DNA of 26,067 nucleotides from a virus. The notes beneath the pieces are model-generated. The model saw only the letters and a list, made by a program, of their open reading frames with translations. It was not told the origin of the DNA and searched no databases. The position numbers and the translations under genes are program-made. The stretch is from IMG/VR virus record IMGVR_UViG_3300007351_000277, positions 64,001 through 90,067 of that record; one strand, given 5' to 3'. Shown here in pieces: positions 1,875 to 25,784 of this stretch (positions are counted from its first letter, which is position 1; every line of letters starts with the position of its first letter).

Positions 1875-3626
1875 ATGCCATTTCGTAAGCCCGCTGAACC
1901 GCGGGACAATCGAGTCTATGAATATGGATGCTTGCCGCCTACTGCTGGGTTTGATGATATGCTCGACCAACTCCGGGGTCGCAATACTTTCTGGAACTGC
2001 CTGGTCGAGATCGAGCGTCGCCAGCGGATCGAGGTGCGCTCGCTGCTACAGCCCCCCGAGTCAAAGGTACCTGCCCTCCAGCAGGAGTTGGAGGAAGCCC
2101 GAGTTGCTATCAAAGCCGAACGCAAGCGACAGCGTTCCAGGAATGCCGATGTGTCCGATCTTCGTGCTTACATCAAAGACCTACAGCAGCAGTTGAAGAG
2201 TGCTAGGGCCGAGGACAAAGCTGCTCGTGAGCGCATCAAAGAAGCCAGCCAGCCTCGCCTTGACGAACTGGAGGCTGAACGCCTCGAACAGGTCAAAGCT
2301 GCTCAGCATAACTCCAACCTCTATTGGTGCAACTACGATGATGTTCTGGCGTCCTATGGCGTTGCCCGAGTTCGGGCTATGCGAGAGGGCACCGAAATCA
2401 AGTTCCACCGCTTCGACGGCACCGGCAAGGTCTCGGTCCGCTATCAACAGGGCCTGCCGGTGGCTGACGTTTTCGGCGCCGACACCCGGCTGCAGATTCG
2501 ACCGGTCGACCCCAGGGCCTGGACCAGCCCCATCCGCGGCGAGCGTCGCCGGTTGGCCCGCACCGTTGTGCGCATTCGCATAGGCTCTCACGAGGATCGT
2601 AGTCCGGTTTGGCTTGAGCTGCCCATGGTCATGCATCGGCCACTGCCCGAAGGTGGCGGCATCCGTAATGCCGCCGTGGTACGGGAGCGAATAGCCGACT
2701 CATGGCGGTATCGGCTTGTCATTACAGTAGCTACTCCGCAGCAGGAGATTGTGACGCATCAAGATCGAAACCGTATTGCCATCGATGTAGGTTGGCGTAA
2801 GCTCGATGAGGGACTGCGAGTAGCCTACTGGGTAGACGACTTAGGACAGCAGGGACAGGTGCTGCTGGCAAACGAGGTCATCGAGCAGTTTCGCAAGGTG
2901 GATGACCTGAAATCTATACGTGATCTGCATTTCAACGCTACACGAGTAGCTTTAGTCGATTGGCTGCAGCACGTTGTCGTGCCCGACTGGTTAGCCGAGC
3001 GATGTAAAACTTTATCCTTCTGGCAGAGCCAGGCCCGACTCTCCGCCCTCGTGCGTGACTGGGAGGGCCAGCGTTTCGACGCCGATGATGAGATGTTGGC
3101 TGGTCTGCAAGCCTGGTGGGTCAAAGACCGGCATCTGTGGCAGTGGGAAAGCCACTTGCGGGACCAGGTGGGGCGCCATCGGCGCGAACTGTATCGGCGT
3201 TTCGCCGCCGATCTGGTTAGGCGCTATCGGCAGGTCGTGTTGGAGGATTTTGACCTACGGCGAGTTATTGAACACCCCAAGGCCGAGGTGGGTACCGGTG
3301 GAGGCATTCCAGGTGCCTGGTACCGCAAGACTGCTGCGATCAGCAGTTTGAGACTGACCATCGAGCATACCTGTAGCCGAGAGGGTGTGGAGGTATTGAA
3401 AGTCAACCCCAGCTATAGTACGCTAACCTGCCATGTCTGCGGGCAGATCGATCAGTTCAACGCTGCCGCCGAGCTGGTCCACAAGTGCTCGCAATGCGGC
3501 CTGCTGTGGGACCAGGATGCTAATGCCGCTGCCGTGCTGCTACAGCGAGCTTCGCAAATCGAGGCTGTTTCAGAGCAGAAAACGAGTTGCGAAGAATCGA
3601 CGACCCCGCCTACCGATGGGGGCTAG
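1875..3626 (+). CDS. cas12m: Compact Cas12 effector, Cas12m-like (type V-M / V-U1)
   Basis: RNA-guided DNA-binding effector of the TnpB/Cas12 lineage, 583 aa, encoded 55 nt upstream of a CRISPR array on the same strand. Residues 62-145 are a long charged helical or coiled-coil stretch, as expected for a recognition lobe. The RuvC parts follow in order: RuvC-I IAIDVGWR with D304, RuvC-II VVLEDFDL with E457, a zinc finger C519-x2-C522 and C538-x2-C541, and RuvC-III DQDANAAAVLL with D548. Length and the DVGWR form of RuvC-I fit Cas12m (about 600 aa) better than Cas12f or a transposon TnpB, and no tnpA or IS end is adjacent. Characterised Cas12m proteins bind DNA and block transcription without cutting it efficiently. 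Here all three acidic positions look present, so activity cannot be judged from sequence. A TnpB relative is the alternative, but the array makes that unlikely. Confidence 0.8.
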   Translation: MPFRKPAEPRDNRVYEYGCLPPTAGFDDMLDQLRGRNTFWNCLVEIERRQRIEVRSLLQPPESKVPALQQELEEARVAIKAERKRQRSRNADVSDLRAYIKDLQQQLKSARAEDKAARERIKEASQPRLDELEAERLEQVKAAQHNSNLYWCNYDDVLASYGVARVRAMREGTEIKFHRFDGTGKVSVRYQQGLPVADVFGADTRLQIRPVDPRAWTSPIRGERRRLARTVVRIRIGSHEDRSPVWLELPMVMHRPLPEGGGIRNAAVVRERIADSWRYRLVITVATPQQEIVTHQDRNRIAIDVGWRKLDEGLRVAYWVDDLGQQGQVLLANEVIEQFRKVDDLKSIRDLHFNATRVALVDWLQHVVVPDWLAERCKTLSFWQSQARLSALVRDWEGQRFDADDEMLAGLQAWWVKDRHLWQWESHLRDQVGRHRRELYRRFAADLVRRYRQVVLEDFDLRRVIEHPKAEVGTGGGIPGAWYRKTAAISSLRLTIEHTCSREGVEVLKVNPSYSTLTCHVCGQIDQFNAAAELVHKCSQCGLLWDQDANAAAVLLQRASQIEAVSEQKTSCEESTTPPTDGG

Positions 3627-7567: not shown

Positions 7568-7789
7568 CTAGTGCCCGCCGCGCCATACGATATAATCGTT
7601 CTTTAGTGACGGGTAGAAGCCCCGCGCGCATTTCTTGTTGCAAAAGACAGCGAGCCGGATTTCGCCATTTTGACCTTTGATCTTCCAGTTTCCATATGCG
7701 TACAAGGTTTTCTTGTGCTGGTCACACCAATCGCATTTTTGTTCTGGTGTGGCAGATATGCTGATTCGCTCAACGGTCAATCGCTTCAT
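7568..7789 (-). CDS. Small zinc-binding-like protein
   Basis: ATG 7789 with AGGAGGAGAC SD. The 73-aa product has C19-WC (DWCDQHK) and later CNKKC (FCNKKCARGFY), a four-cysteine arrangement typical of small treble-clef or FCS-type zinc fingers. Preceded by a type B leader hairpin. Phage and plasmid genomes carry many such small zinc proteins of unknown role. Confidence 0.7.
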   Translation of the reverse strand: MKRLTVERISISATPEQKCDWCDQHKKTLYAYGNWKIKGQNGEIRLAVFCNKKCARGFYPSLKNDYIVWRGGH

Positions 7790-8310: not shown

Positions 8311-8340
8311 GCCCGGCGGGACCTGACCGTTCCGCCGGGC
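8311..8340 (-). terminator. Type D intergenic hairpin
   Basis: GCCCGGCGG and CCGCCGGGC form a 9-bp stem around a 12-nt loop, between the stop of the gene at 8349 and leader B2. Similar hairpins sit at 11387-11424, 12307-12339, 12706-12744 and, less perfectly, 13048-13084, each following a gene end. No U-tract is present, so termination is inferred. Confidence 0.5.
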
Positions 8341-8348
8341 TGGGGGGC

Positions 8349-8975
8349 TCAGGGCCTGCTAATCGAGAGCGCCGACGTGTCTCCGTCCGCGTCGCCACAC
8401 ACAACGACGTCGTATCCTCGATTAGATAGTTCGTCAACCACATCGTCGAAGATGTGATTCGGGACGTATCCCGAGACCTCGACTTCGTCGTCGGCGGCGG
8501 CTCGAGTTCGGTACTTGGTCTCTATCCGAGTTACTGCCCGCGCAATTTCATCGGGTAGTTCGAGGCCAGCCTTGACCCTGGCCTCGCTGGTATGGGCGCA
8601 CTGATCGAGCGCCCATTCGACCATGGCCTCCGCTACGTCAGAAGGCCAGTCCTCTTCTTGCTCAGCAGCGAAGCGAATCTCCGCTGTCAAACTTTCTGTG
8701 ACGAACCCGCCTTGCCCGTCAGGCTGGATTCGCCTGTCACCGATGATGCGATCCAGCAGTTTGGTGAAGTCGCCACGGACGTAGGCGTAGGGCAATTCGG
8801 GATATCCGTTGGCGCACTCAGGGCACAGGACATTGCCGGTGTCCTGGCCGTTCTCGTATGCCTGGTGCCATTGCTCGCCTATCTCGGGTGAGCGCCCGCA
8901 GGACGAGCATGCTTTGAGCAGGTCTGCCTGCTCCTGATCCTCAATCTCGAATCCTGCTGATTTGTGGATAGCCAT
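8349..8975 (-). CDS. Hypothetical protein with zinc-finger motif, 208 aa
   Basis: ATG 8975 after AAGGAGACAC. Residues 23-56 hold CSSC and CPEC, a four-cysteine zinc site of rubredoxin or zinc-ribbon type. The rest is acidic and helical (EDWPSDVAEAMVEWALDQCAHTSEARVKAGLELPDEIARAVTRIETKY). The C-terminal FDDVVDELSNRGYDVVVCGDADGD looks like a Rossmann-like beta-alpha-beta edge. Function unknown. It is one of the longest genes of the minus-strand accessory block. Confidence 0.7.
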   Translation of the reverse strand: MAIHKSAGFEIEDQEQADLLKACSSCGRSPEIGEQWHQAYENGQDTGNVLCPECANGYPELPYAYVRGDFTKLLDRIIGDRRIQPDGQGGFVTESLTAEIRFAAEQEEDWPSDVAEAMVEWALDQCAHTSEARVKAGLELPDEIARAVTRIETKYRTRAAADDEVEVSGYVPNHIFDDVVDELSNRGYDVVVCGDADGDTSALSISRP

Positions 8976-9575: not shown

Positions 9576-9618
9576 GTGTCGGGTTGTCCTTTCTCCTGGC
9601 AATGCCAGGCTATGCGTC
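9576..9618 (-). promoter_or_regulatory. Type E leader hairpin, copy E1
   Basis: On the minus strand CCTGGCATTGCCAGG forms a perfect 6-bp hairpin, followed by AGAAAGGACAACCCGACAC and the ATG. The same block, with a diverged stem, precedes the mini-ORF at 10004 (copy E2). Confidence 0.5.
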
Positions 9619-9667: not shown

Positions 9668-9886
9668 CTACGTAGGGCTGATATGGTTCGCCTTAATGCC
9701 GCAACAGACCGTAATCTGTTCGAGGTTTGTCACGTCGATCAGTGCACCGCAGTAGCCATCGCCTACTTGGTGCGCACAGACGGTGTAGCGCCGCCCGTTA
9801 ATTATATACACGTCCCACACGCCAGCACCTACCTTGCCATTCTTCTCGTGCCTGCCTTTGCAGGTCGTTCCTTTGGCTGTCTTCAT
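9668..9886 (-). CDS. Hypothetical protein, 72 aa
   Basis: ATG 9886 after GAAGGGAGACC; the frame stays open upstream to 9985 but without an SD. The product (MKTAKGTTCKGRHEKNGKVG, VWDVYIINGRRYTVCAHQ, LEQITVCCGIKAN) has four to five cysteines and may bind a metal. It has its own extended -10 promoter at 9918-9923, one of two sharing a long upstream motif with the promoter near 14857. Confidence 0.65.
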   Translation of the reverse strand: MKTAKGTTCKGRHEKNGKVGAGVWDVYIINGRRYTVCAHQVGDGYCGALIDVTNLEQITVCCGIKANHISPT

Positions 9887-9910
9887 GTTGGGGTCTCCCT
9901 TCTCTTTGCT

Positions 9911-10004: not shown

Positions 10005-10046
10005 TGTCGGGTTGTCCCTTCTGTCTGGCAAGGTCAGGCTATACGG
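10005..10046 (-). promoter_or_regulatory. Type E leader, copy E2
   Basis: TAGCCTGACCTTGCCAGAC, then AGAAGGGACAACCCGACA and ATG. It matches E1 through the SD and start context; the leading TAG is the stop of the gene at 10194. Confidence 0.45.
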
Positions 10047-10194
10047 TGGCTTGCTCTGTCGTCAGCTTGAGCGTTCCCTGCAACCAGCCTTGCAGGTGCG
10101 ACGGTACCGGTGTTCCGTCTGGTAGTGCTGGGGGCTTGGGCTGTTCGTCGTCTGGGAACATGGGAAGCTGCAGCTTGTCGGGCTTGCGTGCCAT
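10039..10194 (-). CDS. Small Pro-rich protein, 51 aa
   Basis: Below usual length cut-offs. ATG 10194 follows GGAGGTAACACA at the end of type A leader A1. The product (MARKPDKLQLPMFPDDEQPKP, then PALPDGTPVPSHLQGWLQGT) is proline-rich with no recognised domain. Its TAG stop (10041-10039) is the first base triplet of the type E leader downstream. Confidence 0.6.
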   Translation of the reverse strand: MARKPDKLQLPMFPDDEQPKPPALPDGTPVPSHLQGWLQGTLKLTTEQATV

Positions 10195-10263
10195 TGTGTT
10201 ACCTCCTCATAGTCTCACGGGCTAGGCGAGATGTCACCATCAGCCTAGCCTGCAGGATTATGC
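10195..10263 (-). promoter_or_regulatory. Type A leader RNA, copy A1
   Basis: Minus strand: GCATAATCC, then GGCTAGGC, an apical GATG/CATC hairpin, GCCTAGCC, GACTATG and GAGGAGG. The stop TAA of the gene at 10258 is inside GCATAATCC, so the upstream ribosome would stop within the outer arm. One outer pair is weakened (GACTATG against CATAATC). Confidence 0.7.
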
Positions 10264-10686
10264 TGCGCGCTTGCTGTGCTTGTGGCTTGGGGGATGGCAG
10301 ATGCCACAATCATCGCAATAGGTGTACGCAGGATCATGGTACTTGTAACAGTTTTCGCAACGTGGAAAGTAATCTTTCCTCCATTCCCCACATTGCCAAA
10401 TCCATCCGTACTCGCGCCCGTTGTGGGGCTTTGTAATGGGGACAGAATCTTTCTCGTCGCGCCATCCGCGGCAGTCTACGTCAATGCGAACCCCGTGTCG
10501 GGTCAGTACTGAGCCATAGCCAAATCCGTTTGGGAACCAGACCGTCTGTCCGATGATGTGATCCCATTCCTGAGCGGGAATATCTGACTGCCAATAGTAT
10601 GAGTCGATGATGGGTTCGTCGCGGCGCTCGAAGGCGTGCCCCTTCAATGCTAGCTTTCCATTGCGATTGACAATCGAGTTGAACAT
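10258..10686 (-). CDS. Hypothetical protein with C-terminal Cys/His cluster
   Basis: ATG 10686 after AGGAGGCAAAACC. The first 100 residues (DSYYWQSDIPAQEWDHIIGQTVWFPNGFGYG, RIDVDCRGWRDEKDSVP) are Trp/Tyr-rich. The last 40 have CENC, a YCDDCGICH run and HKHSK, giving a zinc site of several Cys and His. 142 aa in total. Function unknown. Flanked on both sides by type A leaders. Confidence 0.7.
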   Translation of the reverse strand: MFNSIVNRNGKLALKGHAFERRDEPIIDSYYWQSDIPAQEWDHIIGQTVWFPNGFGYGSVLTRHGVRIDVDCRGWRDEKDSVPITKPHNGREYGWIWQCGEWRKDYFPRCENCYKYHDPAYTYCDDCGICHPPSHKHSKRAA

Positions 10687-10756
10687 GGTTTTGCCTCCTC
10701 ATAATCTCACGGGCTAGGCAAGGATACTTGATCCAGCCTAGCCTGCAGGATTATGC
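10687..10756 (-). promoter_or_regulatory. Type A leader RNA, copy A2
   Basis: GCATAATCC with GATTATG (outer stem) and GGCTAGGC with GCCTAGCC (middle stem). The apical pair is GGAT/ATCC, a compensatory change against GGAC/GTCC in A4 and A5. The stop of the gene at 10751 lies in GCATAATCC. GAGGAGG follows the stem. Confidence 0.75.
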
Positions 10757-10969
10757 ACCTCGCTTCAGGCATGTGTCAGAAATCTTGTTGTATATGTTGA
10801 GATAGATGTCCATGCGGTGAGATGCTTCTACATAGTCCTCCCAATTGCCATTTTTCTGTTCTTCCTTCTGGTGCGCAATGGCCGCGTCTCGGTAGGCATT
10901 CCAGGCAGCCTGACGCAGAAACTTTGCCTCGGTAGGCGAGAACGATAGTCTAATATACGGGGATCTCAT
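10751..10969 (-). CDS. Hypothetical helical protein, 72 aa
   Basis: ATG 10969 is used (GAGGAGGTACCCGACA upstream) rather than the ATG at 10987 that lies before the SD. The product (MRSPYIRLSFSPTEAKFLRQAAWNAYRDAAIAHQ, then KNGNWEDYVEASHRMDIYLNIYNKI) is predicted mostly alpha-helical, without motif. It ends RGA and TAA inside leader A2. Confidence 0.65.
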   Translation of the reverse strand: MRSPYIRLSFSPTEAKFLRQAAWNAYRDAAIAHQKEEQKNGNWEDYVEASHRMDIYLNIYNKISDTCLKRGA

Positions 10970-11009
10970 TGTCGGGTACCTCCTCATAATCTCATGCTAG
11001 GCGCGATGG
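10970..11009 (-). promoter_or_regulatory. Type A leader, truncated copy A3
   Basis: Keeps the 3' half (GCCTAGC, GAGATTATGAGGAGG) and the SD but lacks the GCATAATCC and GGCTAGGC 5' arms. The truncation would leave the SD unpaired. Confidence 0.45.
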
Positions 11010-11249
11010 CTAACAGAGTTTGTCGATTAGGCTCTTGGCACCTTTCCATCCTGCGTAGTCGGTTTGCAGCGCTACTGCTATCAGTTGGTAGGTAGGCGCA
11101 CTGCTGAACATCGCGAATAGCGCCACGTCGTTCGCGATCTTATCGACGTTGACCTGCTTGACGTAGTCCTCTGGCCCCTCGAATGAGCCGTCGTCAAAGA
11201 CGCGAAACTTCCCTGCCTCGGCCACAACTCTTGCCTTGCTCAGTGCCAT
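11010..11249 (-). CDS. Hypothetical protein, 79 aa
   Basis: ATG 11249 with AGGAGGTACAACCC. The product (MALSKARVVAEAGKFRVFDDGSF, then VNVDKIANDVALFAMFSSAP, ALQTDYAGWKGAKSLIDKLC) is small, soluble and probably alpha/beta. No family recognised. It sits directly after leader A4. Confidence 0.65.
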   Translation of the reverse strand: MALSKARVVAEAGKFRVFDDGSFEGPEDYVKQVNVDKIANDVALFAMFSSAPTYQLIAVALQTDYAGWKGAKSLIDKLC

Positions 11250-11320
11250 TGGGTTGTACCTCCTTCATAATCTCACGGGCTAGGCAAGGACCGCGTCCAG
11301 CCTAGCACCTGGGATTATGC
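11250..11320 (-). promoter_or_regulatory. Type A leader RNA, copy A4
   Basis: GCATAATCC/GATTATG outer stem, CTAGGC/GCCTAG middle stem and a GGAC-GCG-GTCC apical hairpin, then AAGGAGGTACAACCCAATG. It directly follows a type B leader with no gene between them. Confidence 0.7.
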
Positions 11321-11324
11321 GATT

Positions 11325-11366
11325 ACCTCCTCCTGTGCCGGGTCTCACACGCCCGGCTGCGACTAT
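11325..11366 (-). promoter_or_regulatory. Type B leader hairpin, copy B3, without its own gene
   Basis: TAGTCGCAGCCGGGCG, a GTGTGAGA loop and CCCGGCAC precede AGGAGGAGG. The next bases, GTAATCGCATAATCC, are already leader A4, so this SD has no gene. Loop bases differ from the other copies while the stem pairs are kept. Confidence 0.55.
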
Positions 11367-11386
11367 GCGTCAACTCCTACCGTGGT

Positions 11387-11424
11387 GCCCGGCGACTTCC
11401 GCCTTAGGCGGAAGCCCGCCGGGC
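11387..11424 (-). terminator. Type D hairpin with inserted palindrome
   Basis: GCCCGGCG pairs with CGCCGGGC; the loop holds the CCGCCTTAGGCGG palindrome (11399-11411), giving a second stem at the apex. It lies between the gene at 11433 and leader B3. Confidence 0.45.
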
Positions 11425-11432
11425 TGGGGTGC

Positions 11433-12002
11433 TCAGGACTCCTGGGGCCAGTGACGCTGGCCCCACCCCGGTTGCCACCACGCCTGCACGGTGGCGACCA
11501 GGTCCCGCATCCGGGCCTGCTTGACCTGTGGCCAGCGGATGTGCTCTGGCCACAGGTGCTCATCGGGCAGCGGGACGGCCCATGCCGCCGAGTCATCCAC
11601 CAGCGCCTTGACGCGCCGGTAGAGCCCGTAGGGGATGGGCTTATCCCATACGGACGACTCGACCATCGAGTCGTCGGCGGGATGGCACTCCCACCAGACG
11701 ATCCCCGACATGCCGGCGAGCAGGCCGGCTTCCTTGCCGTCCCACTGGCCCTTCGCGTGGAGGACGTCGGGCTCGCCCTCCACGTGGTCTATCGATGTAA
11801 CCACGCACTGGAACCAGCCGGAGGGGACGCCAACCGCTATAGTGTCCCCAACCGCAACGGAGGGGACGACATAGCGGTTGGCGTATTCGGCTGGAATCTT
11901 CTCTCCGTTGAGCCGGACCTCGGTCCGGTTCATGGAATCGAGGCGGCACACCGCGCCCGGTGGCGCGAAGAAACGGATCGTCAGGTCGACTGGAACTTTC
12001 AT
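11433..12002 (-). CDS. Hypothetical protein, 189 aa
   Basis: ATG 12002 is chosen because GGAGGGGACG stands just upstream; the frame is open to 12086 but without an SD. The product has a beta-rich first half (MKVPVDLTIRFFAPPGAVCRLDSM, YVVPSVAVGDTIAVGVPSGWFQCVVTS) and a Trp-rich C-terminus (AWAVPLPDEHLWPEHIRWPQ, VQAWWQPGWGQRHWPQ). The first half could be a small barrel or OB-like domain. No function recognised. Confidence 0.65.
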   Translation of the reverse strand: MKVPVDLTIRFFAPPGAVCRLDSMNRTEVRLNGEKIPAEYANRYVVPSVAVGDTIAVGVPSGWFQCVVTSIDHVEGEPDVLHAKGQWDGKEAGLLAGMSGIVWWECHPADDSMVESSVWDKPIPYGLYRRVKALVDDSAAWAVPLPDEHLWPEHIRWPQVKQARMRDLVATVQAWWQPGWGQRHWPQES

Positions 12003-12043
12003 CGTCCCCTCCGTACCGGGACTCTCGCGCCGGCTGCGACTAG
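12003..12043 (-). promoter_or_regulatory. Type B leader hairpin, copy B4
   Basis: The stop TAG of the gene at 12040 begins the element (TAGTCGCAGCCGG), followed by CGCGAGAG, CCCGGTAC and GGAGGGGACG before ATG 12002. Confidence 0.6.
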
Positions 12044-12246
12044 TCGATTGCGACGCGGACGGTTCGCTCGTTCCGCCCGTCGTCATAGATCAGGTCGAAA
12101 ATGTCTCCCGGCTCGCACCGGATGATGCCGCTCGTGAAGGGCGGCTCGAAACTGCCCCGACGGTAGGCCATGAGAGGCGTAACCTCGTGGCCGTTCATGT
12201 CCAGGCCTGCGATGCAGGCCAGGTCGTCCAGGTTCAGCTCTTCCAT
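12040..12246 (-). CDS. Hypothetical acidic protein, 68 aa
   Basis: ATG 12246 after GAGGGGGAGAGG. The product (MEELNLDDLACIAGLDMNGHEV, FTSGIIRCEPGDIFDLIYDDG) is acidic and beta-rich. Its stop is shared with leader B4. No family recognised. Confidence 0.6.
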   Translation of the reverse strand: MEELNLDDLACIAGLDMNGHEVTPLMAYRRGSFEPPFTSGIIRCEPGDIFDLIYDDGRNERTVRVAID

Positions 12247-12288
12247 CCTCTCCCCCTCTGCCGGGGCTCTCGCGCCCGGCTGCGACTT
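12247..12288 (-). promoter_or_regulatory. Type B leader hairpin, copy B5
   Basis: AGTCGCA, GCCGGG, a CGCGAGAGC loop and CCCGGC, then AGAGGGGGAGAGG and ATG 12246. A type D hairpin (12307-12339, stem GCCCGGCGGG/CCCGCCGGGC) stands before it. Confidence 0.6.
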
Positions 12289-12345
12289 CACTCCAATTCC
12301 GACGGTGCCCGGCGGGTCCGAGCCAGGTGCCCGCCGGGCGGGGGC

Positions 12346-12642
12346 TCAGGACCCGGGAGCAGTTTCCTCGGTCCAGCCGTGGAAGCCCTGCCTCCAGAAG
12401 CGGCGCCCACTCTCTGTGAGGACGCCGTAGGATATGGAGGCACCGCCTCCCACCTCGATGGGCCACTTCAGCACGGCCAGGACGAGGCCGGGCCGGACCT
12501 TTTCGACCTCGCCAGAGCGGTCGTACTCGCCGACGACCGTCTCTAGGCTCTCAATCGCTGACCTCGGCACCCACGTGCCATTGATACAGACGGCTTTTTC
12601 CGTCTGCGCCCGGATCTTTCCGTCGATAGCCGTGATCTTCAT
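12346..12642 (-). CDS. Hypothetical protein, 98 aa
   Basis: ATG 12642 with AGAAGGAGAGAACG. The product (MKITAIDGKIRAQTEKAVCING, AIESLETVVGEYDRSGEVEKVR, VLAVLKWPIEVGGGASISYGV) is beta-rich and soluble. No recognised domain. The SD is preceded by a CCCCGCCTCAGGCGGG hairpin, a variant of the local leader. Confidence 0.6.
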   Translation of the reverse strand: MKITAIDGKIRAQTEKAVCINGTWVPRSAIESLETVVGEYDRSGEVEKVRPGLVLAVLKWPIEVGGGASISYGVLTESGRRFWRQGFHGWTEETAPGS

Positions 12643-12656
12643 CGTTCTCTCCTTCT

Positions 12657-12704
12657 CCCGCCTGAGGCGGGGCTATGCGCCAACTGCCAATCCGCCTTAG
12701 GCGG
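12657..12704. repeat. Palindromic repeats CCCGCCTGAGGCGGG and CCGCCTTAGGCGG
   Basis: Two near-identical palindromes (12657-12671 and 12692-12704) stand 20 bp apart between genes. Related copies are at 1678-1690, 7425-7439 and 11399-11411, always in gaps or hairpin loops. They look like a small dispersed palindromic family. Confidence 0.6.
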
Positions 12705-12753
12705 ACCCGGCGGCTCCGAATCCGCATATGGAGGGGCCGCCGGGCTGAGAGGC

Positions 12754-12987
12754 TCAGGACTGGGCGGGGAGCTCCGCCCAGACCGCCTCTGATGCCTGAC
12801 CCTGGGTCGGGTCGAACGCCACGTCCCAGAGGCGCCCGGTCGCGACGGACCGGACCGTGACGATCTCGATCCCGTCTTCCTGCTGCCGGACCGCCACGGC
12901 CCGGCCAGTGAGGACCTCGCCCTCGCTCTCATACTCGTCGTCCGAGAGCGAGGCCCATGCCTCATGGTAGTTGCCTACTGTAAACAT
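12754..12987 (-). CDS. Hypothetical protein, 77 aa
   Basis: ATG 12987 after GGAGGAGAGGAGCC. The frame remains open far upstream, but that part overlaps another gene and carries no SD, so only these 77 codons are real. The product (MFTVGNYHEAWASLSDDEYE, EGEVLTGRAVAVRQQEDGIE, VTVRSVATGRLWDVAFDP) is acidic and beta-rich. Function unknown. Confidence 0.6.
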   Translation of the reverse strand: MFTVGNYHEAWASLSDDEYESEGEVLTGRAVAVRQQEDGIEIVTVRSVATGRLWDVAFDPTQGQASEAVWAELPAQS

Positions 12988-13093
12988 TTGGCGGCTCCTC
13001 TCCTCCTCCCGCCTCAGCGGGGCTATACGCTGACTCCTACCACTGGTGCCCGGCGGCACTGCTGGTGAGCGACAGCCACCGGGCTGGGGGGAC

Positions 13094-13858
13094 TCAATCC
13101 CGGGTGGCCCGGGCAGCCAGGGTGGCCGCTCGCCGGGCGACGATGATACGCTCGCCGACGCCGGGGAGTCGTAGCGGCTCGTGGGTCGCGTGGACGATAC
13201 GGTCGCCGTCCAGTCGGTGGCCCGGGGGAAGGGTCGGGATCTTGGTGCCCCGAGCCCGGGCCAGGGCAATGTCTCCCTGGCGCTGAACGATCTGGTCCTC
13301 CATGCCAGACCAGATCCACGATATCGCGTCCCGAACGGTCCTGATCCTGTTCGGGACGGGGTGGGCAAAATAGGTCCCGGCCTCGTTGCGGCCGACGAGG
13401 AAAACGGTGTTGGCGAAGCTGGGGTACCAGGAGCAGCTATGCGCGTACACGCGCTTGCGCTCCACATTGACCAGGCCCAGGCCGGCGCCGGCCTGGGCAA
13501 AATATGGCGCTGATGCCGCCAGATATGGGGGCACAAAATCGAGACCCCTAACAGTGATGTGGTCGCCCCTTGCCCAGGCACCGTGCTCGTCCGAGCGGTA
13601 CCCTGCAGCCTGGGCCAGGGCCTCGGCGGAGCGGACTCGCCAGGTCCGCACCCGGCGCTCCCGGGACGCCTTCCACACCTCGGAAGGCGTCGACCGCCCG
13701 CTCTGGAGCATGGCCAGGCCACGCTCGACGAGCTGAAGTGCCCGCTCGCGATTGGCGGGCTTGACCGAGCGAGCCGCCCTGAAGATCTGCGACTCGCTCG
13801 TGCGCGGGAACCTCCCGCGTAGGGCATCGAGACACGAAAAATACCGTCGCTTCTCCAT
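13094..13858 (-). CDS. Hypothetical protein, 254 aa
   Basis: Longest gene of this block. ATG 13858 has an AGAAGGGACACC SD. Basic N-terminal half (MEKRRYFSCLDALRGRFPRT, then RERALQLVERGLAMLQSG), a middle part with PYLAASAPYFAQAGAGLGLVN, and a C-terminal part with VQRQGDIALARARG, LPPGHRLDGDRIVHATHEPL and ERIIVARRA. The C-terminal part resembles a short phage beta-barrel module that contains a QGD start and a His-rich middle, but the similarity is weak. No catalytic motif can be assigned. Confidence 0.65.
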   Translation of the reverse strand: MEKRRYFSCLDALRGRFPRTSESQIFRAARSVKPANRERALQLVERGLAMLQSGRSTPSEVWKASRERRVRTWRVRSAEALAQAAGYRSDEHGAWARGDHITVRGLDFVPPYLAASAPYFAQAGAGLGLVNVERKRVYAHSCSWYPSFANTVFLVGRNEAGTYFAHPVPNRIRTVRDAISWIWSGMEDQIVQRQGDIALARARGTKIPTLPPGHRLDGDRIVHATHEPLRLPGVGERIIVARRAATLAARATRD

Positions 13859-13918
13859 CGTTGGTGTCCCTTCTGCTGGTGTATGATGCCCGCCAGCAGG
13901 CTTGTTGTGTATGCCATC

Positions 13919-14158
13919 TCATGCGTATGGGCTAGCGTCTATTACGAGCTCGAGGCGCCGATCCTTGCTTATCCGCTCAGCAAGGGCTAACGCCCGATCG
14001 TAGCTAGCACAATCGTAGACCTTGCCCACCGTACAATCCTCATCATCGAGGAACGATACCGTCCAGTACGGTATCTCATCGCCCCATCGGTCGCATGTAG
14101 CGAACGGGCCATCGACTACTACAGCGGTAGGCTTGCCAGTTACGTATGCGGTTTGCAT
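13919..14158 (-). CDS. Hypothetical protein, 79 aa
   Basis: ATG 14158 follows AGGAGGTAACCCA at the end of leader A5. The product (MQTAYVTGKPTAVVVDGPFA, WTVSFLDDEDCTVGKVYDCA, DRALALAERISKDRRLELVID) ends in a helix-strand pair, a plausible small alpha/beta domain. No family recognised. Confidence 0.65.
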   Translation of the reverse strand: MQTAYVTGKPTAVVVDGPFATCDRWGDEIPYWTVSFLDDEDCTVGKVYDCASYDRALALAERISKDRRLELVIDASPYA

Positions 14159-14227
14159 TGGGTTACCTCCTCATAATCTCACGGGCCAGGCGAGGACCGA
14201 AGTCCAGCCTGGCACCTGGGATCATGC
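14159..14227 (-). promoter_or_regulatory. Type A leader RNA, copy A5 with UUCG loop
   Basis: The middle stem is CCAGGC/GCCTGG, replacing CTAGGC/GCCTAG on both arms (compensatory). The apical hairpin is GGAC-UUCG-GTCC, a stable UUCG tetraloop. The outer arm reads GCATGATCC, giving a G-U pair with GATTATG. This is the copy that best supports selection on RNA structure. Confidence 0.8.
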
Positions 14228-14232
14228 TGGCA

Positions 14233-14472
14233 TTAGATGATGTTGGCTCGCCAGGCCGCGGTAATAATCCTCTTGGCTTGCTCGGATAGGCGATTGCGAG
14301 GAACGAATCGCCCGTTGTGGATTGCGCCGAGCCAGTACGGATGCGACCCCGCGATTAGGTGCACCGGTCTGCCATTGCCATGGGAAGACTCACCGATGGT
14401 CAGGATCGCTTCTCGAGTTAGGTTGGCCTCGGTCCCATAGCCCAGTTTGTAGTCCACAGTGATGGTCGTCAT
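14233..14472 (-). CDS. Hypothetical protein, 79 aa
   Basis: ATG 14472 is used, after GAGAGGGGTACAACCC; an in-frame ATG at 14493 lies before that SD. The product (MTTITVDYKLGYGTEANLTR, ILTIGESSHGNGRPVHLIAG, LSEQAKRIITAAWRANII) is a small alpha/beta protein without a recognised family. Confidence 0.65.
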   Translation of the reverse strand: MTTITVDYKLGYGTEANLTREAILTIGESSHGNGRPVHLIAGSHPYWLGAIHNGRFVPRNRLSEQAKRIITAAWRANII

Positions 14473-14545
14473 TGGGTTGTACCCCTCTCTCATAATTAGT
14501 CGGGCTAGGCAAGGACCGCGTCCAGCCTAGCCTGCAGGATTATGC
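14473..14545 (-). promoter_or_regulatory. Type A leader RNA, copy A6
   Basis: GCATAATCC, GGCTAGGC, a GGAC-GCG-GTCC apex and GCCTAGCC are kept, while the SD side is changed (TAATTATGAGAGAGGGG). The stop TAA of the gene at 14540 is in the GCATAATCC arm. Confidence 0.65.
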
Positions 14546-14857
14546 GATCACCTCCTGGCAAGCCGCACAGCGCAGCCCTGGCGCCAGCCTGACCAGCCCC
14601 GGCCAGTCGCCGGGAACGATGGCGGCCTCGATGTGGCCGCCTAGATATCCCTCGGCGACCACCAGGACATCGCCCTCGCCGGGCAAGGTGCCGACCCAAA
14701 GGGTGAGCGCACCCCAATGACGGGGCTTGCGCCACGTCGCTTGTTCAAGCGCCCAGCGCAGACGAGGCGACCGTGGGTCGTACCCCGTCTCTTCGATCCG
14801 GGCCGGATTCCAAGATTCGACCTGGGCAGGCAAGCTGCCGACGAAAGACATATACAT
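14540..14857 (-). CDS. Hypothetical protein, 105 aa
   Basis: ATG 14857 after GGGGGGAAGGGAAC. First gene of the long minus-strand block, driven by promoter P2. The product (MYMSFVGSLPAQVESWNPAR, WRKPRHWGALTLWVGTLPGE, VLVVAEGYLGGHIEAAIVPG) has a beta-rich middle and a CAAC motif near the C-terminus. It ends VIA-stop inside leader A6. Function unknown. Confidence 0.65.
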   Translation of the reverse strand: MYMSFVGSLPAQVESWNPARIEETGYDPRSPRLRWALEQATWRKPRHWGALTLWVGTLPGEGDVLVVAEGYLGGHIEAAIVPGDWPGLVRLAPGLRCAACQEVIA

Positions 14858-21008: not shown

Positions 21009-21037
21009 TTGACTTCTATATGGCATTGTGTTATAAT
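21009..21037 (+). promoter_or_regulatory. Consensus promoter of tnpA
   Basis: TTGACT (21009-21014), a 17-nt spacer, and TATAAT (21032-21037) with an extended TG. Transcription would begin near 21044, the ATG of tnpA, so the mRNA is probably leaderless. Confidence 0.8.
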
Positions 21038-21043
21038 GCTCTT

Positions 21044-21448
21044 ATGAGCGAACCAAGATATCGCAAGAACGCTGGGACTGTTTACAACCTGCACTACCAC
21101 CTTGTCTGGTGTCCGAAATACCGGCACAAGGTTCTGGTTGGTCCAATTGCCGAGCGTCTTAACGAGTTGTTGCGAGCCAAGGCTATTGAGCTTGAGTCCA
21201 CAGTCGAGACGCTGGAAATCATGCCTGACCACGTTCACCTGTTCGTCTCGGCCCCGCCAACGCATGCCCCGCAACATCTGGCTAACCAGTTCAAGGGCTA
21301 CACTTCTCGTATTCTGCGGCAGGAGTTCCCCTCGCTCCGCTCCCGACTGCCGAGCTTGTGGAGCCGCAGCTACTACGTAGGCTGCGCCGGGCATGTCTCG
21401 GCTGACACGATTGAGCGGTACATTGCCGCTCAGAAGACACGGACATAG
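21044..21448 (+). CDS. tnpA: IS200/IS605 Y1 HUH transposase TnpA
   Basis: 134 aa, single-strand DNA transposase. It shows HVHLF (HUH motif at H63-x-H65) and SYYVGCAGHVSADTIERYI, the conserved C-terminal segment with the catalytic Tyr (Y126). The start is ATG 21044 rather than the in-frame ATG 21020, because the -10 box lies between them. It ends 3 nt before tnpB. Appears intact. Confidence 0.95.
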   Translation: MSEPRYRKNAGTVYNLHYHLVWCPKYRHKVLVGPIAERLNELLRAKAIELESTVETLEIMPDHVHLFVSAPPTHAPQHLANQFKGYTSRILRQEFPSLRSRLPSLWSRSYYVGCAGHVSADTIERYIAAQKTRT

Positions 21449-21451
21449 ACG

Positions 21452-22579
21452 ATGCGCAAGGCGTTCAAATACCGTCTCTACCCGACTAGCCAGCAGGTCG
21501 AAGCGTTGGCGAAGATGCTTGAGACGCATCGCCGCTTGTACAATCATGCACTGGATGAGCGCAAGACAGTCTGGGAACAGGAGAAACGCTCGGTCAGCTA
21601 CGGTGACCAGTCGGCGTATCTCAAGGGCGAGAGAAAGAGCGATCCCTATCTGGCTGACACCAACTTTTCTAGCTGCCAGGCTACACTCCGGCGGCTCGAC
21701 AAGGCATTCAAGGCTTTCTTCCGTCGGCTGAAGACTGGTGAAGCCCCCGGCTATCCCCGCTTTAAGGGACGGCATCGCTTCGATACGGTCGAGTTCCCCT
21801 CCTACGGCGATGGCTGCAAACTGGATAGCGGCCGGGTATACTTCCAGCACGTCGGCTCGGTCAAGGCCAAGCTGCACCGCCCCGTCGAAGGGACGATCAA
21901 GACCGTCTCCTTCAAGCGGGAACCCGACGGTTGGTACGTCATCTTTTCCTGTGACCTTGGCAACGTGCAGGTCGTTGCTTCTGCCAACTCGCCGGTCGGC
22001 ATTGATATGGGACTCAACGCCTTCCTGTTTACCTCCACTGGCGAGAGTGTCACACCACCCAAGTTCTACCGGAAGGCACAGGGTAAGTTGCGCCGGGCAC
22101 AGCGCCGCCTTTCTCGCCGCAAGAAGGGCAGTAACCGCCGCCGGAAAGCTGCACAGCAGGTGGCGAGGTTGCATCAGCACATCACCAACCAGCGACGGGA
22201 CTTCCACCATAAAACGGCGCTGTCGCTTGTACAACGATATGGCATTATCATTCATGAAGACCTCAACATCAAGGGTATCGTTCGTTCTCGTCTTGCCAAG
22301 TCCACGCACGATGTGGGTTGGGCAAGCTTCCTGGTGATTCTCGGCAGCAAAGCGGAAGAGGCTGGCTGCAAAGTAATCGCCGTCCCTGCCTACAACACAT
22401 CTCAGGTATGTAGTCGGTGTGGATGCTTGCCCGATATTCCCAAGACTCTCGCTGATCGTGTACACGTTTGTCCTCACTGCGGCTTTGTGGCCGACCGCGA
22501 CCACAACGCCGCTCTAAACATTCTTCGGCAGGGACTCTGCCGTCAGGCGCTAACGTCGGCAGTGGCCGACGTAGCCTGA
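21452..22579 (+). CDS. tnpB: IS605 TnpB RNA-guided nuclease
   Basis: 375 aa, programmable DNA nuclease guided by the omega-RNA read from the element's right end, an ancestor of Cas12. RuvC-I GIDMGLNAF with D185, RuvC-II IIHEDLNIKG with E269, zinc finger C320-x2-C323 and C340-x2-C343, RuvC-III ADRDHNAALN with D350. The three acidic residues are intact. It shares the window with a Cas12m-like effector, the probable descendant of such a protein. Confidence 0.95.
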   Translation: MRKAFKYRLYPTSQQVEALAKMLETHRRLYNHALDERKTVWEQEKRSVSYGDQSAYLKGERKSDPYLADTNFSSCQATLRRLDKAFKAFFRRLKTGEAPGYPRFKGRHRFDTVEFPSYGDGCKLDSGRVYFQHVGSVKAKLHRPVEGTIKTVSFKREPDGWYVIFSCDLGNVQVVASANSPVGIDMGLNAFLFTSTGESVTPPKFYRKAQGKLRRAQRRLSRRKKGSNRRRKAAQQVARLHQHITNQRRDFHHKTALSLVQRYGIIIHEDLNIKGIVRSRLAKSTHDVGWASFLVILGSKAEEAGCKVIAVPAYNTSQVCSRCGCLPDIPKTLADRVHVCPHCGFVADRDHNAALNILRQGLCRQALTSAVADVA

Positions 22580-24253: not shown

Positions 24254-24769
24254 CTATCCACACCTACTATACCCACAGCCCCTGCACACAGCACACCCTT
24301 CCTGTAGTTCCAGCAAGCCATTGCATTCCGGGCACTGAGGGTTCATACCAGTCTCTGCTACGCTTACCGGTCTTATGGGGATTGGTTCCCGTGATACCAA
24401 CTTGATGCTCGGTGATTCTTCCCCTGGGTCTGTGTGTAGCCTGATTGCATGGCCTATGGCGTCACTGCACGACAGTATCTGTGCCCCGTTATCGAACATA
24501 GGCGCTGGACACCGGATACCTCGAAGCTGCTTGATGATATCGTTGGGGTCAGCACCTAATCGGAACGCCAATGATACCAATCTTCCCACAGCTTCCGTCT
24601 GGCTACCCGCACAGCCACCCGACTTGCCCAACTTGGCGAACAGTTCGATATCGCCCTGGTCATCTTGATTGATGGTTACGAACAGCGAGCCACAGCCCGT
24701 TTTCATCTTGTACGTTTGTCCGGTCGTTACCTTCGGTCTTGGCCTTGGCTTCTTTGGCTTATTCGTCAG
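24254..24769 (-). CDS. Stand-alone TSCPD-domain protein with CTG start
   Basis: The TSCPD domain is the C-terminal module of B12-dependent (class II) ribonucleotide reductase. Reading from ATG 24706 gives MKTGCGSLFVTINQDDQ, then LFAKLGKSGGCAGSQTEAVG, ADPNDIIKQLRGIRCPAPMF and a C-terminal CPECNGLLELQEGC. The frame extends upstream as TNKPKKPRPRPKVTTGQTYK, which matches the family's RPRP...GkTYK lead-in. The only start is CTG 24769, 6 nt after AAGGAGG. ATG 24706 has no SD, so I take CTG as the start. A complete reductase is not present. It overlaps the RNA ligase gene by 11 nt. Confidence 0.75.
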   Translation of the reverse strand: MTNKPKKPRPRPKVTTGQTYKMKTGCGSLFVTINQDDQGDIELFAKLGKSGGCAGSQTEAVGRLVSLAFRLGADPNDIIKQLRGIRCPAPMFDNGAQILSCSDAIGHAIRLHTDPGEESPSIKLVSREPIPIRPVSVAETGMNPQCPECNGLLELQEGCAVCRGCGYSRCG

Positions 24770-25784
24770 TGAAGTCCTCCTTATGTCGAATCAGGTAATC
24801 GTCCCCAACGTATTTGAGTATTACCCTGCCGATAGCAGGGTGAGTCCTTTCGCGTTTGGGTCGTATCACCACGCCCTCTTTGACATGGTTTCCCTGAAAG
24901 GCTCTCCCCTCGGCTTTCTGTCGTATGGTAGCCATACTGAACTCACACTGCTCGTATGGTACGTGTGGTATCTCGTACTCGCGACAGAGATCAAGAAACA
25001 CACCGTGGTTGCAATATTGACCATTAACCAAAACATCGAAGGCAACATAGGCTAATCCCGACTGACCATACTGTAGGTCCTGAACGCCTTTGCCATATAT
25101 CTCACCAAACAACATTACCTGATCGTAGAAATACCCGAAACATTTTATGAACCTACGTACACCTGGAATCGTTAGTGGGTACCAGTACAGGTTGGCTGCC
25201 CAATCTGCTTCGGACGCGGGCGGTTTCCGACGCAATCGATTGGACCCCGCCATCGTTTCGCCTTTTATGCAGCCCAGTCGCGAATGGCTCCCGTGCACCT
25301 TCTCGGTTACCCATACCTCTTCGCCTTCTTGCAAGATCGACGGGAAGTTGCGTAGGTTTTCGATGTTGGTGTACAGGACAAACAGGGGGTCGTCCGCCAT
25401 GGCATCGCCTGCACTGACACGTACTGGCGGTATGTACTTCTTGGCACCGTAGTAATCAGCCACATCTTCTTCACTGGGCCACGGTTTGTCTGGCGGGAAT
25501 ACCAGACCATACGAAGGCTCACCACGCAATTTGGCGCAACGAATACGCCCCATGTCGGGATTGTCTTTCCCGAAGCTCAAATACTGCGTGACTCCCAATT
25601 TGTCAGCTAGTTCCCTGGGTATCATGGTGTCGGGTGGCATATAGACCACCTTGTCGCCAGTCTTGTACTGTCCCCTTGGCGTGACGGTCTGCCATCCACC
25701 AATGACAGCCAAATCCAATCGGTCTGCATTTGGGTGTGGTTTTACGTCTGCTATCTTAGTCACCTTGACGATCAGGCTACTCAA
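24759..25784 (-). CDS. RNA ligase (DraRnl/Rnl5-like)
   Basis: 341 aa ATP-dependent RNA ligase, start TTG 25784 after AAGGAGGT. Nucleotidyltransferase motif I is KVHGSH with the nucleophile K162; motif III GEIYGKGVQDLQYG (E228), IIIa VAFDVL, IV EGVVIRP (E303) and V ILKYV (K324). The N-terminal 100 residues (SSLIVKVTKIADVKPHPNAD, GDKVVYMPPDTMIP) form the OB-like domain seen in the Deinococcus radiodurans type ligase. Such enzymes seal nicked RNA, in phages often to reverse host tRNA cleavage. It precedes the TSCPD gene. Confidence 0.93.
   Translation of the reverse strand: MSSLIVKVTKIADVKPHPNADRLDLAVIGGWQTVTPRGQYKTGDKVVYMPPDTMIPRELADKLGVTQYLSFGKDNPDMGRIRCAKLRGEPSYGLVFPPDKPWPSEEDVADYYGAKKYIPPVRVSAGDAMADDPLFVLYTNIENLRNFPSILQEGEEVWVTEKVHGSHSRLGCIKGETMAGSNRLRRKPPASEADWAANLYWYPLTIPGVRRFIKCFGYFYDQVMLFGEIYGKGVQDLQYGQSGLAYVAFDVLVNGQYCNHGVFLDLCREYEIPHVPYEQCEFSMATIRQKAEGRAFQGNHVKEGVVIRPKRERTHPAIGRVILKYVGDDYLIRHKEDFTDE

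Follow-up and report, generated by a model that had tools for sequence, protein, structure and literature searches.

A repeated hairpin directly upstream of the starts of unrelated small genes in a phage ORFan array

In cluster K mycobacteriophages, start-associated sequences (SAS) and extended start-associated sequences (ESAS) are repeats found just before the starts of a subset of non-structural genes of different families (PMC3203893). The arms of the ESAS generally do not support pairing, and their authors rejected an mRNA hairpin and favoured DNA-binding sites (Pope et al. 2011, PMC3203893). In T4-like phages, the promoter early stem-loop (PeSL) cassettes consist of stem-loops between small genes, associated with modular cassette shuffling and described as promoter-terminator elements in PMC4503421 (Arbiol et al. 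2010; Comeau et al. 2014). Hairpins in front of phage starts can also act in translation, as in the T4 gene 43 operator, where binding of the repressor blocks translation (PMC3014915). Here, we analyse a repeated element, type A, that precedes small genes in positions 64001-90067 of the virus record IMGVR_UViG_3300007351_000277 (90,067 bases in total); this stretch of 26,067 nucleotides is called the window, and coordinates refer to it unless stated otherwise. The element is about 70 nt long and is present as five full copies (A1, A2, A4, A5 and A6) and one 3' half-copy (A3), all oriented like the genes, on the minus strand, and located between ORFan genes. It is confined to this array, with no copy elsewhere in the 90 kb. 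The original prediction had placed six copies before small genes, and all six were recovered, A3 being truncated. They are given below, with their Shine-Dalgarno (SD) sequences.

A1, 10192..10263, minus strand: hairpin 10262-10208 with a GUGA tetraloop, SD AGGAGG, linker, ATG.
A2, 10684..10756, minus strand: hairpin 10755-10700, SD AGGAGG, upstream stop TAA in the 5' arm.
A3, 10967..11009, minus strand: 3' half (about 11009-10985) and SD only, no hairpin.
A4, 11247..11320, minus strand: hairpin 11319-11266, SD AAGGAGGT, 5' end fused to a type B leader (see below) via the scar CAGGAGGTAATCGCATAA.
A5, 14156..14227, minus strand: hairpin 14226-14172 with a UUCG tetraloop, T-A to C-G in the middle stem, SD AGGAGGT.
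A6, 14470..14545, minus strand: hairpin 14544-14491, 3' internal loop diverged, SD-like GAGAGGGG.

Each full copy folds as one hairpin of 54-56 nt, whose 3' end lies 0-4 nt before the SD, and each copy is followed by the SD and then by an ATG at normal spacing. From its base upwards, the fold comprises 6-7 pairs of outer stem, an internal loop that is paired in part, a middle stem (8 bp in A1, A2 and A6; 7 bp in A4 and A5) and, offset by a 1x2 loop, an apical hairpin of 4 bp. The z-scores of the full copies range from -4.8 to -6.2, with none of 200 dinucleotide shuffles folding equally well, and A3 has no fold (z 0.04). On the sense strand, the apical loops include the tetraloops UUCG (A5) and GUGA, of the GNRA type (A1). 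The five full copies are paired in 97.8% of the cells of an alignment that was fitted to the covariance model, which favours structure, and pairing reaches 100% in the middle and apical helices. Four pairs show a two-sided change in the five full copies, which is matched by 3 of 500 shuffles, and the covariation score (0.233) is reached by none of 500 shuffles, the slid-structure controls giving at most 0.078. Of these four pairs, one is a T-A to C-G replacement in the A5 middle stem, and the other three are apical, across A1 and A2. The individual replacements that had been named from the sequence (CTAGGC/GCCTAG to CCAGGC/GCCTGG in A5, the apical GGAC/GTCC, GGAT/ATCC and GATG/CATC, and the UUCG loop of A5) are all correct. 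The outer stem CATAATC/GATTATG, described as shared, is indeed present but is imperfect in three copies, where the departures are an A.C mismatch in A1, a G.U in A5 and a C.A in A6; it has no two-sided change. The covariance model that had been suggested as a check was built from A4-A6 and recovered the held-out copies A1 (E 7e-10) and A2 (E 2e-13), with no further match in the 90 kb apart from the complements of the known copies.

The upstream genes of A1, A2 and A6 terminate with GCA-TAA within the 5' arm CATAATC, and the homology among the copies runs from about the last codon of the upstream gene to the next ATG. We found no promoter serving the type A elements as a class in a scan that covered the sigma-70 type, the sole sigma-70-like match on the coding strand that touches a copy being at A2, and no terminator-like site at the elements, where the stem is followed by the SD and not by a T-run.

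We favour, with about even confidence, an interpretation of type A as an intercistronic RNA hairpin that tunes the initiation of translation of the downstream gene and, secondarily, serves as a joint for recombination; most likely, it would act at the level of the mRNA. The element would then be a stop-to-start linker in an apparently polycistronic phage operon. Its 5' arm holds or adjoins the upstream stop and its 3' arm ends at the next SD, which would place the stem at the upstream edge of the binding site of the 30S subunit. The outer stem would be melted by ribosomes that terminate at the upstream stop, and a protein bound to the hairpin would keep ribosomes from loading; a single shared hairpin could thus give the same tuning to several unrelated genes. 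In the DNA, homology located exactly at the gene boundaries would allow cassettes to be swapped with intact reading frames.

The claim that the stem changes are direct evidence for selection on RNA structure is too strong: the two-sided changes correspond to about three events (the block of the A1 apical helix, one A2 pair and one A5 pair) in five paralogues of a single genome, and hairpin-templated (quasi-palindrome) mutation could possibly make matched changes without selection. The compensatory changes thus support a maintained hairpin well but do not prove that selection acts on RNA. Several other observations weigh against a translational role of the sense RNA. The plus-strand (antisense) RNA of every copy folds equally well or better (in kcal/mol, sense and antisense, respectively: A1, -25.4 and -31.4; A2, -27.9 and -30.8; A4, -28.4 and -31.5; A5, -31.3 and -31.4; A6, -23.7 and -28.5), so the pairing alone does not pick the sense mRNA, and the evidence from wobble pairs on the strand is split. 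The evidence comes from one genome with few independent changes. A3 lacks the hairpin and yet retains its SD and gene. The mean unpaired probability of the SD is 0.48-0.66 when the element is free versus 0.39-0.61 when the 5' arm is occupied; the computed accessibility shows no consistent effect, and a switch based on SD sequestration is not supported. Finally, and concerning mRNA stabilisation in particular, the ermC mRNA is less stable in B. subtilis when a stem-loop is too near the SD (PMC7509114).

The comparable folding of the two strands speaks for a palindrome that is read as DNA, either as the site of a phage DNA-binding protein or as a cruciform-type element. The authors of the ESAS proposed this for their repeats, and the inverted repeats at cluster K starts were interpreted as DNA sites (PMC3203893). 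We regard this as improbable for type A, whose apical arms change in sequence and stay complementary, unlike a dyad that is read as sequence, whose internal loops are asymmetric, and whose sense orientation relative to the SD is stereotyped. The sense-RNA reading rests mainly on this position, i.e., on the constant orientation between stop and SD: the sense mRNA is favoured because the copies end within a few nucleotides of an SD that is normally spaced from its ATG, and because the UUCG and GUGA loops are on the sense strand. An RNA element in this position could also act in mRNA processing or decay, as an RNase III-type site or as a barrier that protects the downstream segment of a long operon. 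A long stem between cistrons would suit such a role, and a stem-loop with a ribosome-binding site is a known stabiliser, as in the aprE leader (Hambraeus et al. 2002, as cited in PMC7509114), but the imperfectly paired internal loop breaks the helix, and we consider this explanation quite improbable.

The copies differ from one another in ways that bear on their history. The 5' arm carries TGCAG in A1, A2 and A6 and CAGGT in A4 and A5, while the loop and linker have one allele in A4 and A6 (a GCG loop with TACAACCCA) and others elsewhere. Since all four combinations of the arm and loop/linker alleles are present, the mosaic copies suggest recombination or gene conversion among copies, with recurrent change as an alternative. 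A4 is preceded by CAGGAGGTAATCGCATAA, a near-identical counterpart of CAGGAGGTGATCGCATAA, with which the gene before A6 ends; on its other side, CAGGAGGTAATCGCATAA joins an orphan type B leader. At 11320-11340, the type B leader is fused to the 3' end of a gene (QEVIA-stop), itself directly joined to A4. From its sequence, this junction is an apparent deletion scar of a lost gene.

The genes next to the copies are short, and they are as follows.

10194-10039, minus strand: gene downstream of A1, 51 aa.
10686-10258, minus strand: gene downstream of A2, 142 aa, ATG start; it is also the gene upstream of A1, and its GCA-TAA end is inside the A1 5' arm.
10969-10751, minus strand: gene downstream of A3, 72 aa.
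11249-11010, minus strand: gene downstream of A4, 79 aa, ATG start.
14158-13919, minus strand: gene downstream of A5, 79 aa, ATG start.
14472-14233, minus strand: gene downstream of A6, 79 aa, ATG start.
14857-14540, minus strand: gene upstream of A6, its ATC-GCA-TAA end in the A6 5' arm.
10039..11249, minus strand: the four small ORFan genes after A4, A3, A2 and A1 (79, 72, 142 and 51 aa), mutually unrelated.
13919..14857, minus strand: the three small ORFan genes around A6 and A5 (105, 79 and 79 aa).

The small ORFan proteins of the array have no match in PHROG and none above the curated cut-offs of Pfam, the 142-aa protein after A2 having only a sub-threshold match to a Pfam zinc ribbon. 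The assigned frame is the best fit to the codon use of the phage in 13 of 14 tested open reading frames of the cluster, the exception being this same gene. The proteins encoded downstream of the type A copies show no significant similarity to each other. The repeating unit is therefore the element and not the genes.

The same array has another family of hairpin leaders next to the SD, type B, located before the genes at about 12290, 12044, 8294 and 7835.

7835-7790, 8294-8253, 11366-11320 (the orphan that abuts A4), 12044-12003 and 12291-12247, minus strand: type B leaders, AGTCGCAGCCGGGCGCGAGAG.
11320..13093, minus strand: GC-rich block of type B genes between A5 and A4, preceded by the gene 13858-13094.

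Further hairpin leaders are found in this block before the SDs at about 13030, 12670, 12270 and 12030, and leaders with CCCGCCTCAGGCGGG, which resemble type B, are found at about 13010 and 12665. Right after the stops of type B genes, there are GC-rich inverted repeats (AGCCCGGCGG...CCGCCGGGCACC, at 12312-12339, 12737-12761, 11416-11440 and 8332-8356), which results in two hairpins per intergenic region. A third repeated start-proximal motif (AGAAAGGACAACCCGACA and variants, minus strand) precedes more genes of the array (9577-9594, 9886-9903 and 10005-10022). SD-adjacent hairpins are not a rule for every gene of the phage: in a scan that stops before the last genes, the majority of those outside the array score no better than shuffled sequences. 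The GC content at third codon positions is mostly 0.77-0.85 in genes with type B or B-like leaders (0.61 for one at 7789), versus 0.56-0.69 in type A genes, the phage core genes having 0.53-0.65. Because of this difference, the type A and type B gene sets may have different origins.

Alternatively, the element could persist primarily as homology at gene boundaries for swaps of ORFan cassettes, as proposed for the T4 PeSLs, the RNA fold being secondary. Its boundaries coincide with stop and start codons, the neighbouring genes are unrelated, the alleles form mosaics, the scar at A4 links a type B leader to a gene-end remnant common to A6, and the base composition of the two gene sets differs. 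On the other hand, homology alone does not require compensatory pairs and stable tetraloops, and there is no second genome with cassettes swapped at the elements; we find a primarily recombinational role unlikely. We keep the translational hairpin as the preferred interpretation. One could extend it, speculatively and with a low chance of being right in full, to a post-transcriptional regulon: the portable stop-to-start linker, bound by a phage factor (the genome encodes a Ro60/TROVE-like protein) or opened by the terminating ribosome, would set the translation of many unrelated ORFan genes and double as a frame-preserving joint, type B being a second and unrelated linker family for genes of different base composition.

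The record is a tailed bacteriophage as judged from its gene content, since it encodes, outside the window, a terminase large subunit (TerL), a portal protein, a DNA polymerase processivity factor and glycosyltransferases, and, within the window, a sigma factor. TerL has about 25-30% identity to the best phage matches listed, and no close relatives appeared in IMG/VR searches with TerL, the clamp or one ORFan. The Ro60-like protein (L006:6690-8273 of the phage, plus strand), with the Pfam domains TROVE and vWA_Ro60, is a candidate RNA-binding partner of the hairpin. RNA ligase and polynucleotide-kinase-like genes (24759-25784 of the window, minus strand, and L006:13485-14174, plus strand) are a possible RNA repair pair of the phage. 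The window also carries an IS200/IS605-type TnpA (21020-21448) with TnpB (together at 21020-22579, plus strand) and a second protein whose C-terminal domain is Cas12f1-like/TnpB (1875-3626, plus strand). The best relative of TnpB (78%) comes from an unclassified Bacillota genome; as transposons move, this gives no more than a hint on the host. The presence of this Y1-type transposase gene in the same window raises the idea that type A is a mobile hairpin moved by TnpA, like the repetitive extragenic palindromic (REP) sequences or the miniature inverted-repeat transposable elements. We consider this highly improbable: the flanks of the transposon share only 9-nt chance words with the element, which has one orientation and is confined to gene starts. 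An origin from an insertion sequence or from REP and their associated tyrosine transposases was rejected, as there is no GTAG-headed palindrome related to a transposase substrate.

The view that type A resembles no named RNA family stands: there is no match in Rfam 15 at the gathering threshold, and the only matches elsewhere in the region are chance ones to miRNAs. Viral contigs were scanned with exact patterns, which diverged relatives would escape. The patterns GCCTAGCCYRYGRGAYTATGAGGAGG and CRTGAGAYTATGAGGAGG gave no matches, and neither did the pattern of type B. The pattern CATAATCN{34,52}ATTATGAGGAGG gave two, which lack this fold and are due to chance, and the eight matches to GCTAGGC...GCCTAGC...AYTATGA are all one unrelated hairpin of a single virus group. 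A strict pattern had no match in about 85,000 bacterial and archaeal genomes. The covariance model, run with no positive control, had none in 11 genomes with relatives of the phage TnpB or in 99 genomes of the family of the genome with the best TnpB relative. BLASTN against phages and plasmids found none either. At the sensitivity reached, no homologue of the type A element was found.

Little is understood of how the many short genes of phage ORFan arrays are jointly regulated and turned over. If our interpretation is correct, a recombining hairpin that defines boundaries before unrelated genes would link the control of expression to the exchange of cassettes, and it would provide a sequence handle to locate co-regulated phage genes of unknown function. 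As the element covaries internally, unlike ESAS, the idea of an mRNA hairpin is directly testable.

How does type A compare with the known systems? Two of them share with it a hairpin near a start. Like the T4 gene 43 operator, it is upstream of a phage start codon, but that is a single operator bound by the product of its own gene, whereas type A precedes several unrelated genes and its binder is only hypothetical. Like the stabilising 5' stem-loops of the aprE/ompA type, it is a stem-loop followed by an SD, but these are in 5' leaders, whereas type A is internal to a gene array and directly abuts the SD. The closest known systems are SAS/ESAS and the T4 PeSLs. With the latter, type A shares a repeated stem-loop between small genes and a link to shuffling, and it differs by having neither a consistent early promoter nor a terminator tail, its stem-loop being at the SD. 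The loose parallel with ESAS drawn in the original prediction is apt for the position, since both are start-adjacent repeats with an imperfect inverted repeat directly upstream of a start-associated sequence; it fails for the structure, where the rejection of an mRNA hairpin by the ESAS authors is the opposite of the pairing found here. Unlike in ESAS, the arms of type A covary (the four two-sided pairs) and form one hairpin, and the element includes or adjoins the upstream stop. The 13-bp core GGGATAGGAGCCC of SAS is also absent, the start regions of type A reading AGGAGGTAACCCA-ATG and variants. Type A thus lacks a defining feature of each of these two systems; it resembles a start-associated regulatory repeat of phages but represents a previously unseen family that belongs to none of those compared.

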